Source: Sulfurimonas sp. C5 (GTDB lineage Bacteria > Campylobacterota > Campylobacteria > Campylobacterales > Sulfurimonadaceae). Taken from it: a stretch of 64,000 nt of DNA. Where the stretch lies: contig NZ_JARXNQ010000001.1 in NCBI RefSeq assembly GCF_029872055.1, positions 248,001 to 312,000 on the forward strand, written 5' to 3'. This document shows, piece after piece, positions 40,379-47,464 of the stretch (positions within the stretch are counted from its first letter, which is position 1; every line of letters begins with the position of its first letter). The translations under genes were made by a program, and so were the position numbers. Under the pieces are notes generated by a model. That model did no database searches. It worked only from the letters and a program-made list of their open reading frames with translations, and was not told where the DNA came from.

Positions 40379-42310
40379 TTATAAACTTTTTTGTATCAGT
40401 TCGTCTATTTGATCAATATCTGAAGTATTTGCAAAACAGCTTTTTTCTCCACAGATCATAAAATCTTTGTCATCACTTGATTTAAGAATCGTAAACGGAT
40501 AACTTATAGCTCCAAGTTTACTACGATTTTCTTTGAGATTAGTTAAAGTCGATTTAACAATCCTATCACCTTTGATGTAACGTAGTGCTTGAATCATCAT
40601 ATATGGATAATAAATCGGACGGCGTCCAAGATCATAAGAATTGTATTCCATCGTTTTAAACGCAAAGTGTGTATATTTTTCATCCTCTAAAAGCATTCCA
40701 AGCGTGAGAAGTACGTCCACAATAATACTAACACTGCTTGTGTATGTATTGTCAGTCACTTCAGCTTTAGTTTTAAACTCTCCTACACTGAAGTTCCATA
40801 AGCCTTTCTCATAAAAGTTTTCAAGCGCTTTATTTGCCATTCTTTGTGCTTGGATGAGATAATATTCATCCTGAGTTATTTTGTATGCACTAAGCAGTGC
40901 TTTTGCTAAAAAGGCATAATCTTCTAAGAATGCTTCAACTTTAGGTGTTTTTTCAGGCAGAGATGTATGGTATAGCGTGCCATTAACAAACATTTTTGCT
41001 AAAAGTGCATCAAGTGCCTCTATCGCTTTTGTTTCATAAGAGCCATCAACACTGCTTAGTTGGAAAAGGGAATAGATCATCATGGCAGACCAAGATGTTT
41101 GTACTTTTCTGTCAATAAACGGATATGCTCTTTTGCCACGGATCGATTGTAAAAGTTTTTTTACATCAGCAAACCATGTCGGGACTTCGTTGTCAAAGCG
41201 GATAATGTTTTTTCCTTCAAAGTTTCCTTGTAAAGTTACATTCATCTTTTCACACATTGCACCTGGTTCATCATAACCGTGTTGCGTAAGAAGATCATAG
41301 ACTTCCTCATATGTGTAAGTAAAGTAAGTTCCCTCTTCACCTTCGCTGTCAGCATCACTTGCACTGTAAAAGAGGTTCTCTTCACTCATATGGTTAAACC
41401 AGAAGTCTGCTATCTCTTTAGCGGTATGTAAATACTTTTCATCTTTGTAAGCCAGATAAGCTTCAAGGTAGTTAGAACAAAGCAGAGCATTATCGTATAA
41501 CATTTTCTCAAAATGGGGAACTAACCATTTTTCATCTACAGAGTAGCGGCAAAAACCACCGTCAACGAGATCATACATACCACCTTTTTTCATCTCGTCC
41601 AGTGTGTGTGTAATCATCGCTTGAATGGCTTTGTCATCATATAAGTTGTCTATCACTTGCAGCGCTTTGAGTGTGGAAGCGTGCGGGAACTTCGGTTCCA
41701 CTGAAAATCCTCCGTATTTTGGCTGGAAGTTGCTTTTTGCCTGATTGATAAACGTAAGGTAAAACTCCGCTTTTAAAACAGTAGCCTCTTTTGGATGTTC
41801 AACATGCTTGATAAAATTTTCCACTTCATCGGCATTTTCGTAAAGTTTTGGATCATTTTCTTCAATTTTTTGAGCAATCAGTGATGTAAGGTCTTTAAAG
41901 CCCATACCTTCAACATCTCCTGTATGTGCTTCCGGAGGAATATAAGTGCCTGCAAAAAACGGTTTGTTCTGTGGTGTACAAAAGATTGAAGTTGGCCATC
42001 CGCCTGCACGGCGGTTTAAGAGTTGATATACTTCCTGATAGTGTTTGTCAATATCGGGACGCTCTTCACGATCAACTTTAATGGAGATGAAGTTCTCATT
42101 TAAAATTTGTGCACATTCTTCATTTTCGAAGACCTTCTCCTCCATCACATGGCACCAATGACATGATGAGTAACCGATGCTTATAAAAATTGCTTTATTC
42201 TCTTTTTGTGCTTTTTCAAATGCCTCGTCACACCAAGGCCACCAATCTACAGGATTGTTTTTATGTTGTTGAAGATAGGGTGAATCCTCTTTTTCTAATC
42301 TGTTTGCCAT
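40379..42310 (-). CDS. DUF255 (YyaL-type) thioredoxin-domain protein
   Basis: 643 residues. The N-terminal ~165 residues form the DUF255 thioredoxin-like domain with [17 protein letters not shown] and the CHWC site ([10 protein letters not shown]). The remaining part is an (alpha/alpha)6-type barrel with [30 protein letters not shown] and [13 protein letters not shown]. The family function is poorly known, with suggestions of a role in sugar/N-glycan-like or redox processes; I do not assign one. PPK2 follows 10 bases downstream on the same strand. Confidence 0.9.
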
Positions 42311-42423
42311 AAAATCTCTCGTTATTATATTTTAGTGTAGAGTAAGATAAAGAGGCTAATTTTGCGCTTAAAGAAAAGAAAATGTTACAATTACAAAAAA
42401 AATATTTAAATTTGGTTTTTTTT

Positions 42424-42921
42424 ATGAAAAAAATTTATATAGCCGGTCCTGATGTTTTTGAACAAAATTCGATTGAAATCGGTAAAAAACTAGTAGCTTT
42501 ATGTAAAATATATGGATTTGAAGGCTTATATCCTTTAGATAATGTAGTAGATTTTTCCCAGCCAAAGCAAAAAATTGCACAAGATATATATGAAGCCAAT
42601 GTAGGAATGATACAAAAAGCAGATATCGTCATTGCCAATCTTAACAGTTTTCGAGGAAAAGAGCCTGACAGCGGTACCGTATGGGAATGCGGTTATGCCT
42701 GTGCTTTAGGAAAAGAAGTTTATGGATATATGCAGAGTACCAAGCCTTATATAGAAAGTTTTTCTAATGATGAAAAGTTTATAGAAGAGGAACATTTTTT
42801 GGATACACAAAAGAGAATAATAGAGGATTTTGATTATCCGATCAATTTAATGATAGCCTGTTCTATAAAGAAAATTTATGCAGGAAAATTTGAAGATGTT
42901 TTAAAGGCACTAACAACATAA
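42424..42921 (+). CDS. Nucleoside 2-deoxyribosyltransferase family protein
   Basis: 165 residues from ATG 42424, where the family N-terminus MKKIYIAGPDVF begins; an ATG 14 codons upstream adds a non-family stretch. Conserved blocks: IYIAGPDVF, DIYEANVGMIQKADIVIANLNSFRGKEPDSGTVWECGYA, with the catalytic Glu expected in GTVWECGY. Such enzymes exchange or hydrolyse 2-deoxyribonucleoside bases, sometimes in damaged-nucleotide clearance. Its stop overlaps the kinase start (TAATG), an unexpected partnership. Confidence 0.88.
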   Translation: MKKIYIAGPDVFEQNSIEIGKKLVALCKIYGFEGLYPLDNVVDFSQPKQKIAQDIYEANVGMIQKADIVIANLNSFRGKEPDSGTVWECGYACALGKEVYGYMQSTKPYIESFSNDEKFIEEEHFLDTQKRIIEDFDYPINLMIACSIKKIYAGKFEDVLKALTT

Positions 42922-45512
42922 TGAGAATTTTAATTATTTCCCTCCTGTATATAGTGAGTTTATCTGCTGCTACTGTAGAAGAAAAAAAACTTGCAAAGAT
43001 CTCTTTGCAACTGAATGGAAAATATCAGTTTGAATTTGCAGGTTTTATTGCTGCATATGAGAAAGGATTTTATAAAGATGTAGGTTTGGATGTACAGCTT
43101 AAAGAGTATCAAGACTCTACACAAATAGAAGAGGATGTTCTCAGCGGTATTTCTACTTACGGTATATATAACTCTTCAACTTTGATCGACTATCTAAAAG
43201 GCAAACCTATTAAACTGGTTGCTTCTTTCTTTAAACGTTCTGCTTTAGTCATGATTGTACATCCTGAAATAAAGTCCCCCAAAGACCTAGTAAACAAGAA
43301 GATTCTCTCTTCTACGAAAGAAGATTTTATATTAAACTTCAAACCGTTTTTAGATTTTTACAACATTAACATAGATGATATTCAACTGTTAAACTATAAA
43401 TATACTATTGATGATTTTATAGATGGTAAAGTAGACGGAATGACTGTATTTATGTCTGATGAACTATACAAGCTCAATAAAAGAGGGATTAAATATCATG
43501 TGTTTGATCCAAGTAATGAGAACCTTTATATACTACAGATGGAACTCTTTAGTTCAGCAGATGAGATCAAAAATCATCCATCAAGAGCAATCAACTTTAG
43601 AAATGCATCTATCAAAGGGTGGCAGTATGCATTGGCACATAAAGAAGAGATTATAGAACTAATACATAAAAAATATGCTCCTGAACTTTCTAAAGAGGAC
43701 CTTCTTGACGAAGCTTACGGAATTGAAAGGCTTATACTCCCGTATACATATGATATAGGCTCTATAGATAAAAACTTTTTAAACAAGCAGATGTCTTTTT
43801 TTAAAAAGCAGTACAACCTTGATCAACAAAAAGGACTTTCAAATTTTATTTTTAATTATGACTACGTAAATAAAAGCCTGTGTTTGAGTGAAGCGGAAAA
43901 ACAGTATATTCAACAAAACCCAGTTATTAATGTTTGTACGTATTCTGATCAATATCCTATAGATGGGGTAAAAAAAGAAAAAATGACAGGAATAATGTCA
44001 GATGTTTTTAACGATATAGCTCAAACAACATCGCTCAGTTTTGAAGCTGTTCCTTCAAGTTCAAAAGAGGATTTGCAACAAAAAGTAAAAGATGGTGAAT
44101 GTCAAATTCTTTCTGCATTTGGAACAAATTCTGACGAGTACCCGACACTTCAAGCTACGAAACCTTTTATCAATGTGCATTACACTTTAATTAGTAAATT
44201 AGATAAATCGTTCGTACTCTCTCCTGAAGAGCTGAAAGACAAAACAATAGTTGTACAGATGCCTTCATTTAAGGAGTATTTGCATTCATTGTATCCCTAT
44301 ATTAATTTTGTTGTAGAAAACGATAAAAACAAGATGGTGAAAATGGTGCTTTCATCCAAGGCATATGCTATAGCTTCACTGGATTTACAGGCTGATTATC
44401 TTATAGATAAATATGGATACGGTAAGCTTAAAATCAATGGATTTTTAGCAAAAGAATATCCTGCTCCTGCAAGTATAGGTGTACAAAAATCAGAGCCCGT
44501 TTTATATACAATTATTGAAAAAGCTTTAACTAGAATTTCTAAAGATAGAATGGACAACATACTAAATACATGGAGAACAACCCGTTATCAAAAAACAATG
44601 GATTATTCACTTGTAATTAAAATTGCAGGAGTGATGGGAGTTATTTTATTGGTGATGCTTTATTACCAAAGAAAACTAAGATCGTTTAATAAAGAACTTG
44701 AAAAACAGGTTGCAGAACAAACAAAACGGCTGCGTGACTACAATAAAACCCTTCAAGACAGTGTAGAGCAAAAAGTAGAAGAACTTATAGCAAAAGATGA
44801 GCTTTTAACACATCAGTCTAAACAAGCCGTTATGGGTGAAATGGTAAGTATGATCGCACATCAATGGAGACAGCCGTTAAATACGATTACATTACAGATT
44901 TCACAGATACAACTGCAGTATCTTTTAGAAAATAAATTAGATAAAGAAGAGATTTTAAAAACGTTTGAGGCTATTAATGCAACAATCATCTATTTATCTG
45001 ACACAGTAGATGATTTTAAAACATATTTCTGTAAAGACAAAGAATTTGTAGAGATAGAGTTAGAAGAGTTGATCGAAAAAGCTATTACATTAATTAAAGC
45101 TAGGTTGAAAGATATAGAAGTAAATGTAGAGATCTACGAATCTATTAAGGCACAAGTCTATGTCAATGAACTTGTACAGGTACTTCTAAATATTTTAAAC
45201 AATGCGATTGACGCGTATGAAGCATCAAACATGCATCATAAAAAGATCAATATCTCTTTAAGACAAGAAAAGCACAGAATCGTAATTGCTATTGAAGATA
45301 ATGCAGGTGGTATACCAAAAGAGCATTTAGAAAAACTGTTTGAACCGTATTTCAGTACAAAAGGGAAAAACGGTACAGGTTTGGGGTTATATATGTCTCA
45401 AATGATTATAGAGAAACATTTTGGAGGTTCAATTAAAGTTGAGACAGAGGAGGGGAGAACGATTTTTAAAATCTATCTACCTACAGTTTCCCCTGTTTCA
45501 CAAGAGCAATAA
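42921..45512 (+). CDS. Sensor histidine kinase with NMT1/THI5-like and SBP_bac_3 sensor domains
   Basis: 863 residues. A signal peptide (1-17) is followed by an NMT1/THI5/SsuA-like periplasmic binding domain (~25-320, KISLQLNGKYQFEFAGFIAAYEKGFYKDVG), then a family 3 solute-binding domain (~330-555, PVINVCTYSDQYPIDGVKKEKMTGIMSDV), one transmembrane helix (~570-592), a coiled coil, and the kinase. The phosphoacceptor is H647 in MIAHQWRQPLN; the ATPase has the N-box NILNNAIDAYE, G1 DNAGGIP and G2 GTGLGLYMS. All kinase motifs are intact. No response regulator is next to it, so it is an orphan. Confidence 0.92.
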   Translation: MRILIISLLYIVSLSAATVEEKKLAKISLQLNGKYQFEFAGFIAAYEKGFYKDVGLDVQLKEYQDSTQIEEDVLSGISTYGIYNSSTLIDYLKGKPIKLVASFFKRSALVMIVHPEIKSPKDLVNKKILSSTKEDFILNFKPFLDFYNINIDDIQLLNYKYTIDDFIDGKVDGMTVFMSDELYKLNKRGIKYHVFDPSNENLYILQMELFSSADEIKNHPSRAINFRNASIKGWQYALAHKEEIIELIHKKYAPELSKEDLLDEAYGIERLILPYTYDIGSIDKNFLNKQMSFFKKQYNLDQQKGLSNFIFNYDYVNKSLCLSEAEKQYIQQNPVINVCTYSDQYPIDGVKKEKMTGIMSDVFNDIAQTTSLSFEAVPSSSKEDLQQKVKDGECQILSAFGTNSDEYPTLQATKPFINVHYTLISKLDKSFVLSPEELKDKTIVVQMPSFKEYLHSLYPYINFVVENDKNKMVKMVLSSKAYAIASLDLQADYLIDKYGYGKLKINGFLAKEYPAPASIGVQKSEPVLYTIIEKALTRISKDRMDNILNTWRTTRYQKTMDYSLVIKIAGVMGVILLVMLYYQRKLRSFNKELEKQVAEQTKRLRDYNKTLQDSVEQKVEELIAKDELLTHQSKQAVMGEMVSMIAHQWRQPLNTITLQISQIQLQYLLENKLDKEEILKTFEAINATIIYLSDTVDDFKTYFCKDKEFVEIELEELIEKAITLIKARLKDIEVNVEIYESIKAQVYVNELVQVLLNILNNAIDAYEASNMHHKKINISLRQEKHRIVIAIEDNAGGIPKEHLEKLFEPYFSTKGKNGTGLGLYMSQMIIEKHFGGSIKVETEEGRTIFKIYLPTVSPVSQEQ

Positions 45513-45708
45513 CAAGAGGGATATTGATCCCGTCATTATTAAAACCTTCATCGTGACAAGCTTCACACTTGTCACCCATTGGACATTCACTATTTTCTAT
45601 AGCTTCTTGTAATGTTTTTAGATTATGCTTTTTAATACACTCTGCAATCTCTTTAGCAGTAAGTGAATTACATATACATACTTCTGTATTTGAATCTAAC
45701 ATAGACAT
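45481..45708 (-). CDS. BFD-like [2Fe-2S] small protein
   Basis: 75 residues. Four cysteines follow the BFD/bacterioferritin-associated ferredoxin pattern: EVCICNSLTAKEI at the start and SECPMGDKCEACHDEG later, with extra Cys and a helical C-terminus. Such domains transfer electrons or bind [2Fe-2S]. The gene overlaps the 3' end of the kinase gene by 32 bases on the opposite strand. It is 7 bases before the DsbD gene's stop side and transcribed in the same direction as dsbD. Confidence 0.72.
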   Translation of the reverse strand: MSMLDSNTEVCICNSLTAKEIAECIKKHNLKTLQEAIENSECPMGDKCEACHDEGFNNDGINIPLVIALVKQGKL

Positions 45709-45715
45709 TCCTAAA

Positions 45716-47464
45716 TTAAAGAGATTGAAGGTGTTCTAAGAACTTCTTAGGCTTTGTAAAACCTACGATTGTTTTTGAATGTATAGGTTGAAGCTCTTTA
45801 TCAAAAAAGATAATTACAGGAGGACCGAACACTTTATACTTTTTACTAAGTGCTTTTGCATTTTCATCGTTAGCAGTTACATCTGCACGTACAAGTACAT
45901 ATTTTTTAAGCTCTGTAATCACTGCAGGATCAGCAAATGTGACTTCATCAAACTCTTTACAAGCTACACACCATTCAGCAGAAAAATCAAGCATTATTTT
46001 TTTACCTTTGTTTTTTTCTAAAACAGTATCTAGTTGTTCTAAAGAAGTTACAACTTCAAATTGAAGTTCTTCTTGCTTGGTTGTTTGTACACTTGTCGTT
46101 GAAGCTGCTAAAAATCCAAGAGGCTGAGTCATACTTGTCTTGCCTGCTAAGAAACTTAAAAACAGTGTAAGAGAATAGATAAAAAGTATAACACCGATAG
46201 TACGTTTAAAGATATGAGTTTGGTTTTCAAATGCACCCAGATAAAGTGCAAAACCGATACCTACTAAAGCATAAAGAAGGATTGTAATCTCATTTGAAAT
46301 CACTTTATCCAGCATCCAAATAGCAACACCGAGCATGATAACACCGAAGATTGCATTTACCATAGTCATCCATGCACCAGGTTTAGGCATAAATTTACCA
46401 GCACTTACTCCTACTAATATAAGCGGTAATCCCATACCGATACTCATACTAAACAGTGCAGTAGCACCTAAAAATGCATCACCGGTTTGTCCAATGTAAA
46501 CAAGTGCACCTGCAAGTGGAGCTGCAACACAAGGGCCTACAATTAATGCAGATAAAAATCCCATAATGGCTACACCGATATAACCACCTTGAGATGAGTT
46601 TTGACTTACTTTAGAAACAATGACTTCAGGTACCTTTAATTCATAAAATCCAAACATTGACATAGCAAGTGCTACAAAAACACCAGCGAATGAATAAACT
46701 ACCCATGGTGTTTGAAGAGCAGCTTGAAGGTTTGAACCAAAAAGTCCTGCTAACACACCGGCAATTGTATATGCAATAGCCATAGCAAGTACATAAACTA
46801 CAGAAAGAGCGAACGCTTTTCTAGTTGTTAAACCATGTCCTTGAGAGATAATAATACCTGAGATAATAGGGATCATAGGAAACACACACGGTGTTAAAGA
46901 AAGGAGAATACCGAAAATGAAAAATGTTGCAATAATAACGAAGAAACCACTGTGTTTGATAGTATCTGAGATGATGTCTGTTTCAGATTTTGTATCTTCT
47001 TCTGCAACAGGCAATTGCTTTTCTTCAGTATTTGAGACAAGTTTTGAAGTATCGACTTTTAAGTCAAACTCTTTTGTATAAGGCTCGTAACATAAACCTT
47101 GTTCTGAACATCCTTGGTAAGATATTTTTAGTTTTAGGTCCTTAACACCTTTGTTTGCAGATGTATCTTGAAGTGTTAAGATGTATTTTGGAGATTCTAT
47201 ATAAACCATGTCACCGTGGTGTTCAACCGGTGCAGGCTTGTTTATATTTTTGATAGAGACATCTTTTGTATTGAGAAGTTCCATTTTTAGTTGCTTTTCA
47301 TATACGTAGATCTCTTCTCCAAGAGTTATTCCCGCTTCTATTTCCATCTTGTCATTGACTTTTGCATATGGTTGAAATGCTTGATCCGGCATTAAAAAAC
47401 CTGCTGCCAAGCTTGATGTAATTGATAAAATGAATATGAGGATAGCTTTTAAAAGAAATTTCAT
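45716..47464 (-). CDS. dsbD: Thiol:disulfide interchange protein DsbD
   Basis: Transfers electrons from cytoplasmic thioredoxin to the periplasm for DsbC, cytochrome c maturation and similar. 582 residues: signal peptide (~1-20), DsbD-alpha domain with two cysteines (YQGCSEQGLCYEP), an eight-helix membrane core (~165-445) with the SLTPCVFPMIP and VGPCVAAPL cysteines, then a thioredoxin-like domain with C499-V-A-C502 (AEWCVACKEF). The whole relay is intact. Its own TATACT-type promoter lies just upstream. It probably supports the many c-type cytochromes in the window. Confidence 0.93.
   Translation of the reverse strand: MKFLLKAILIFILSITSSLAAGFLMPDQAFQPYAKVNDKMEIEAGITLGEEIYVYEKQLKMELLNTKDVSIKNINKPAPVEHHGDMVYIESPKYILTLQDTSANKGVKDLKLKISYQGCSEQGLCYEPYTKEFDLKVDTSKLVSNTEEKQLPVAEEDTKSETDIISDTIKHSGFFVIIATFFIFGILLSLTPCVFPMIPIISGIIISQGHGLTTRKAFALSVVYVLAMAIAYTIAGVLAGLFGSNLQAALQTPWVVYSFAGVFVALAMSMFGFYELKVPEVIVSKVSQNSSQGGYIGVAIMGFLSALIVGPCVAAPLAGALVYIGQTGDAFLGATALFSMSIGMGLPLILVGVSAGKFMPKPGAWMTMVNAIFGVIMLGVAIWMLDKVISNEITILLYALVGIGFALYLGAFENQTHIFKRTIGVILFIYSLTLFLSFLAGKTSMTQPLGFLAASTTSVQTTKQEELQFEVVTSLEQLDTVLEKNKGKKIMLDFSAEWCVACKEFDEVTFADPAVITELKKYVLVRADVTANDENAKALSKKYKVFGPPVIIFFDKELQPIHSKTIVGFTKPKKFLEHLQSL

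Follow-up and report, generated by a model that had tools for sequence, protein, structure and literature searches.

Two adjoining genes in a 64,000-nucleotide stretch of the Sulfurimonas sp. C5 genome (contig NZ_JARXNQ010000001.1, positions 248,001 to 312,000; the whole stretch is called the window below) encode an enzyme of the nucleoside 2-deoxyribosyltransferase (NDT) family and an orphan sensor histidine kinase with two different periplasmic binding domains. The pair is best read as a purine-type NDT expressed together with a BvgS-like tandem-flytrap kinase. Coupling between enzyme and sensor is very probable, because the linkage is kept in two genera, two kinases that lack the NMT1/THI5-like (NMT1) domain also lack NDT, the NMT1 domain carries residues fixed in this clade, and NDT is associated with a kinase a second time elsewhere in the order. 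As the best overall explanation we propose, with confidence a little short of even, that the two genes form one functional unit that senses a nucleobase or a similar heterocycle. The locus has the following features.

42424..42921, + strand: NDT gene, 165 aa; PF05014 match of 125.1 bits; Y5, N59, D82, E88 and N141 present.
42921..45512, + strand: orphan sensor histidine kinase gene, 863 aa; one-base overlap with the NDT stop codon.
42921..42977, + strand: signal-like hydrophobic N-terminus of the kinase, residues 1-19; Kyte-Doolittle value 2.01 over 1-19.
43029..43649, + strand: NMT1/THI5-like periplasmic domain, membrane-distal, residues 37-243; PF09084 match of 121.8 bits (cut-off 20.5).
43926..44576, + strand: SBP_bac_3 periplasmic domain, residues 336-552; PF00497 match of 37.8 bits; nearest BvgS VFT2.
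44607..44666, + strand: transmembrane helix, about residues 563-582; hydropathy 2.33.
44832..45026, + strand: HisKA/DHp region, residues 638-702; PF00512 match below the Pfam cut-off (21.3 vs 26.9).
44859-44861, + strand: codon of the predicted phospho-acceptor H647 of the kinase.
45168..45485, + strand: HATPase_c catalytic domain, residues 750-855; PF02518 match of 81.6 bits; nucleotide-binding boxes kept.

The NDT start at 42424 was favoured over the start of a longer open reading frame at 42382 because relatives begin at the same Met. The sequence-only reading had already set out the kinase as NMT1, SBP_bac_3, transmembrane helix and HisKA/HATPase, a layout borne out by Pfam and hydropathy, and its call of the upstream enzyme holds as well (PF05014, E 2e-36, family cut-off 28.8). 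NCBIfam assigned no family to NDT, and for the kinase it returned just kinase models, all under their cut-offs (best 25 of 64). The two genes are very probably co-transcribed. Terminator-like sites number 4 vs 1.4 (sd 1.1) in shuffled sequences, and one of them, with a poor T tail, lies just past the kinase stop (45518-45531). Promoter-like sites were no commoner than in shuffles (15 vs 16.0), and no riboswitch was seen near the pair, the single Rfam match being far under the gathering score.

NDT is present in 36 of the 135 genomes of the genus, and a full-type kinase orthologue (at least 48% identity, reaching NMT1) in 27. An N-terminal piece of the kinase at a contig end in G120 brings the carriers to at least 28, a lower bound as other fragments were possibly missed. 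NDT immediately precedes the kinase, in the same orientation, in 26 of the 28 carriers; it occurs in only 10 of the 107 other genomes (Fisher p 1.7e-17, a value that overstates independence, the genomes being related). In a second genus of the family, NDT is upstream of all three resolvable kinases (G167, G530, G531), a further one (G529) being cut by a contig end. The sequence-only reading had tied its proposal to conserved linkage with the transferase, and linkage held in 29 of 31 resolvable carriers over the two genera. The gap between the frames, measured in 24 carriers, runs from -61 to +9 bases and is -10 to +8 in 22 of them; the value of -61 depends on the script's choice of start codon. 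A scan of genome contigs yielded a single distant locus, at 25% identity.

Such linkage could arise without functional coupling if the neighbourhood were simply kept by slow genome rearrangement, and wider synteny is indeed common to many carriers, with a DUF255 gene upstream and BFD-like and DsbD genes downstream (the cluster of the BFD-like protein is found in 22 of 41 loci). Nevertheless, the pair is also found intact in the second genus and where another gene (from cluster c31 or c61, or a singleton; at least three different genes in all) lies upstream, so that what is kept is the pair itself and not just its region. The overlap or near-overlap of the frames and the concentration of NDT in kinase carriers argue in the same direction, and we regard an uncoupled neighbourhood as very improbable.

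The distribution of losses adds to the case for coupling. In a tree computed from the SBP_bac_3-plus-kinase part (27 clade kinases longer than 500 aa and six outgroups; quick search, SH-aLRT), two kinases without NMT1 (G082, G155) and two full kinases without NDT (G061, G103) lie inside the paired clade. G082 and G155 fall in separate subclades, as do G061 and G103, while G103 and G155 share one subclade. The genomes G082 and G155 have no NDT and no remnant of it by tblastn, and their kinases have no NMT1 by Pfam. Since these kinases retain the hydrophobic N-terminus, a single simple deletion would poorly explain the joint loss of NMT1 and NDT.

A profile built from 24 NDTs ranked the Trypanosoma brucei enzyme TbPDT (2A0K, 1.6e-24) and the Leishmania mexicana enzyme LmPDT (6QAI, 4.5e-21) at the top, and CtNDT far lower (best entry 4.8e-05). 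TbPDT and LmPDT are purine-specific (PMC10208901, PMC11352528). In CtNDT, E88 is the nucleophile, Y7 is catalytic, and D82 and N118 lie near the 5'-OH (PMC10913048). By alignment, these residues correspond to E88, Y5, D82 and N141 of the window NDT, so that the catalytic Tyr, Glu, Asp and Asn are kept here as in the two distant protozoal enzymes. The Asp at the CtNDT D62 position is not kept, the window NDT having N59; all five residues are invariant across the 24 aligned NDTs (from 36 loci). An Asn at this position is shared with TbPDT and LmPDT, both of which are active; D62N in CtNDT increases futile hydrolysis (PMC10913048), and immobilised LmPDT hydrolyses purine deoxynucleosides. Our best guess is that the window NDT is a transferase with a hydrolytic side activity on purine deoxynucleosides; a type I (purine-specific) substrate range is something we only infer from the nearest relatives. 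The enzyme has no hydrophobic segment by hydropathy and is therefore probably cytosolic. Adjacency to a sensor kinase gene sets it apart from TbPDT and LmPDT.

PHROGs placed NDT with nucleotide-metabolism families, and a search of viral contigs with the NDT alignment found two distant NDT loci (39 and 32% identity). An anti-phage role was considered and is unsupported, as PADLOC gave nothing for NDT, the kinase or a MazG-like protein described below. The NDT frame of G084 is 317 aa long, with a long N-terminal extension that may be a fusion (L109:9498-10451).

The kinase has hydrophobic segments at residues 1-21 and about 559-583, which would make the part between them periplasmic. Although HisKA scores under its cut-off, all 27 clade members retain H647, and the H-box is intact. 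No PAS domain was found in the kinase by Pfam at E up to 0.1, nor any receiver or Hpt domain, and the protein ends after HATPase_c. Receiver and Hpt phosphorelay domains, like a cytoplasmic PAS domain, are part of a BvgS-type kinase. The resemblance to BvgS and EvgS lies in two periplasmic flytrap-family domains in tandem (PMC4352136; PDB 4Q0C, 9ILW), the membrane-proximal one being nearest to BvgS VFT2, as in a BvgS-type tandem. The invariant W551, which precedes the transmembrane helix, aligns with a Trp from the end of BvgS VFT2; matching the numbering by inference, this is probably W535, called conserved in PMC4352136. Unlike BvgS, the kinase has NMT1 rather than SBP_bac_3 as its distal domain, lacks the PAS, receiver and Hpt domains, and has NDT rather than a regulator as its neighbour. 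The tandem-flytrap assignment follows from family matches; a single-sequence AlphaFold model of the periplasmic part gave a mean confidence score (pLDDT) of 34.4.

Alignments comprised 24 of 29 kinase frames (partial or near-duplicate ones dropped; A1), 24 of 36 NDTs (A2), and 21 of 22 (A3) and 23 of 24 (A4) NMT1 stretches. Mean pairwise identity among 24 kinases was 0.62 for NMT1, 0.48 for SBP_bac_3 and 0.59 for the kinase part; among 22 NDTs it was 0.67. The comparison set of other NMT1 sensors consisted of 15 sensors from 16 chosen loci, L128 having no match.

Within the NMT1 domain, H32, Y35, I43, Y83-N84, R106, A108, L205-Q206 and E208 each occur in at least 20 of 21 clade members but in at most one of the 15 other sensors. 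Kinases of the second genus keep GIYNS and FKR-A-L in 3/3 each. At 205-206, columns that align with a Tyr-Asp of ThiY, the other sensors have Tyr in 15/15 and Asp in 7/15, whereas the clade has Leu-Gln. With pocket positions assigned by alignment, these clade-specific residues argue for one dedicated ligand that would differ from those of the other NMT1 sensors.

As to the class of that ligand, profile ranking put structure 4NMY first (2.3e-14), ThiY (3IX1) next (8.8e-08) and THI5 (4H6D) third (1.2e-06), followed by SsuA and TauA; the domain is thus nearer to thiamin-pyrimidine than to sulfonate binders. This ranking could be taken to mean that the kinase senses a thiamin precursor, hydroxymethylpyrimidine (HMP) or formylaminopyrimidine, with a ThiY-type ligand retained and NDT a bystander or a pyrimidine-nucleoside enzyme. 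The likeness to ThiY and THI5 extends beyond the Pfam family and the profile matches to a Trp, kept in 23/24 clade members, that aligns with THI5 W12. However, THI5 has a lysine, K62, that binds pyridoxal phosphate, and a donor histidine, H66 (PMC10848271), and these columns hold Y83 and Ser in the clade, which therefore does not represent a THI5 enzyme. The motif aligned with ThiY is also replaced, no thiamin gene was recognised beside the pair (most neighbours are unannotated), and NDT is nearest to purine-specific enzymes. Sensing of a thiamin precursor is thus improbable in our view. Fusion to a kinase and, in the window protein, the missing W12-aligned Trp further set the domain apart from ThiY and THI5.

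The base-sensing circuit that the sequence-only reading had suggested is supported by the linkage as to coupling but not as to a pyrimidine signal, as the closest solved NDTs are purine-specific and NMT1/THI5-like annotation can mislead, as it did the authors of PMC7373994. On the other side, the best matches of the NMT1 domain itself are 4NMY and HMP/thiamin-type binders. That the ligand resembles a nucleobase is plausible, and one related to purines is possible and the more likely kind. The bridge to purines is circumstantial: it consists of the purine-specific nearest NDTs and of some NMT1-like genes that are tied to xanthine riboswitches and to xanthine and urate (PMC7373994).

The SBP_bac_3 domain has BvgS VFT2 (4Q0C) as its nearest structure in a profile search (9e-32). 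Amino-acid receptors of this family have an Arg, before the FS-PY segment, which we take to bind the carboxylate group. Arg fills this column in 2 of the 27 clade members, the window kinase not among them, vs 4 of 6 outgroup kinases. By analogy with BvgS VFT2, the domain is probably a relay rather than an amino-acid receptor. Two cysteines in it, C339 and C394, are invariant in 27/27 clade members and present in 5/6 outgroups, and a disulfide between them is possible. The pair that includes these cysteines is flanked by genes for a DUF255 thioredoxin-like protein (40379-42310) and DsbD (45716-47464).

As an orphan, the kinase has no receiver domain nearby: of the genome's 35 matches to such domains, the closest are 46.2 kb away on the upstream side and 56.1 kb away on the downstream side, in keeping with the earlier remark, from the sequence alone, that no response regulator is close. 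Nine kinases from the taxonomic order with the same NMT1-SBP_bac_3 arrangement of domains, about 29-37% identical and with different NMT1 residues, were read with 1.5-kb flanks. Two of them, in L083 (807-4029) and L017 (1495-4658), directly adjoin an OmpR-type response regulator (Response_reg and Trans_reg_C) and have no NDT; a third, in L011, adjoins a frame that combines a kinase with two receiver domains; the flanks of the remaining six hold no regulator, and NDT was seen beside none of the nine. Three more kinases (G097, G152, G083) adjoin a regulator by coordinates. Some relatives thus form ordinary pairs, whereas the paired clade has NDT as neighbour instead. Seven relatives of the kinase core (45-58% identical) with a membrane-embedded N-terminus had no regulator in their flanks by eye.

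The L083-type regulator was tried as the missing partner. At 1e-40 it has a homologue in 70 of 135 genomes, including the pair carriers G022, G086, G097 and G140, but none at that threshold in the genome of the window or in seven other carriers (G031, G070, G068, G060, G011, G071, G073), and this candidate was set aside.

NDT is associated with a kinase a second time in the order, where it was found in 46 of 398 genomes, 37 of them outside the genus; of these 37, 20 were read, and the script located NDT in 18. Each of the six loci in genus g74 has a MazG-like gene (all 6 above the PF12643 cut-off) that overlaps or abuts NDT upstream, and a kinase follows NDT in four (G476, G488, G466 and G482; L142, L143, L145 and L146). 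One of these kinases matches dCache_3 over the cut-off in its sensor part, two match it weakly and one does not match it; their start codons are uncertain. By BLAST against paired-clade cores and 54 other cores, the best paired-clade core ranks 10th-12th for the four (40-43% identity), and the best other core gives 43-47%. The g74 pairing looks like an independent association, although core BLAST ranks are weak evidence of this.

Several observations weigh against a unit dedicated to one nucleobase-like ligand. Full kinases occur without NDT in G061 and G103, and NDT occurs without the full-type kinase in 10 genomes of the genus. Joint losses of NMT1 and NDT number only two, and G103 demonstrates that loss of NDT need not entail loss of NMT1. 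NMT1 was considered as a specially co-evolving partner of NDT, but mirror-tree analysis did not single it out, the correlation with NDT distances being r 0.73 for NMT1, 0.74 for SBP_bac_3 and 0.73 for the kinase part. In the presumed ligand site, the window protein has N32-G33 (codons AAT GGA) where 23 of 24 have His-Trp (CAT TGG in G031), which could reflect either an error in the assembly or a genuine loss of ligand binding. Concentrative nucleoside transporters (CNT) were found in 0/135 genus genomes, and deoxynucleoside kinases (dNK) over cut-off likewise in 0/135, with weak matches in 13; xanthine/uracil permeases exceed the cut-off in 13/135, not including the genome of the window. This scarcity makes external nucleoside salvage doubtful (thymidine kinase and other transporters were not searched). 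Finally, the linkage to a dCache_3-like sensor may indicate that what NDT accompanies is the kinase output rather than one ligand.

These points lend substance to an alternative that we consider a real possibility, if short of an even one: the kinase would sense a cue other than a nucleobase (a sulfonate, a thiamin precursor, another nutrient or redox state), and NDT would be one co-transcribed target, for example in adjustment of the deoxynucleotide pool. Binders of sulfonates, taurine and thiamin precursors also belong to the NMT1 family, the g74 loci suggest that the sensor is exchangeable, the MazG-like pyrophosphatase beside NDT in g74 provides a housecleaning context, and the salvage partners tested are mostly missing. 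Against such a cue stand the joint absence of NMT1 and NDT in two kinases that keep the rest of the protein, and NMT1 residues unlike those of other sensors in the same taxonomic order.

If the pair is instead a unit that senses a nucleobase or similar heterocycle, it might work as follows. A cytosolic purine-type NDT would exchange, and perhaps hydrolyse, the base on 2'-deoxynucleosides. The membrane-distal NMT1 domain, with its clade-specialised pocket, would bind a ligand that lysing or excreting cells release, the likeliest being a nucleobase or a small heterocycle like it. The membrane-proximal SBP_bac_3 domain would relay the ligand state, as BvgS VFT2 may do, and binding would alter kinase activity via the single transmembrane helix. 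Phosphate would then pass to a response regulator encoded elsewhere, which would adjust a response that takes in the operon itself. That this amounts to a full periplasmic nucleobase-sensing circuit, in which the NMT1 subfamily is a new class of receptor for purine bases (or damaged bases) and NDT makes, removes or recycles the base, we think rather unlikely. Were it true, pairing of NDT with a sensor would have arisen at least twice, in two families and with unrelated sensors (NMT1-SBP_bac_3 and dCache_3-like), and enzyme-sensor coupling for deoxynucleosides would be a recurrent theme of the order.

The conserved enzyme partner provides a short, testable ligand list for one NMT1 subfamily, together with residues that separate this subfamily from its neighbours, and the pairing could explain the role of NDT in bacteria without dNK-type kinases and CNT transporters. 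Among the matches listed in a literature search, with subscription papers mostly outside it, none dealt with NMT1-SBP_bac_3 kinases or an NDT-kinase operon; in one paper, NDT and a kinase stand as separate table rows. No ligand named for the NMT1 domain of a signalling protein was found in the literature searched. According to a review of cyclic di-GMP sensing, SBP_bac_3 is the only member of the periplasmic-binding-protein clan studied in such networks (PMC8846402).

Two minor observations concern the surroundings. The genome of the window also holds, at G000:C1:600591-602066 (L125, L129), an 811-aa frame with two NMT1 matches, one of them weak, and the motif W-x-H-Q-F-Q-F-A-G-Y-Y; this is another sensor. 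At 45484-45708 on the - strand lies the gene for a small BFD-like [2Fe-2S] protein, which scores below the Pfam cut-off; this gene and the kinase gene overlap at their 3' ends.

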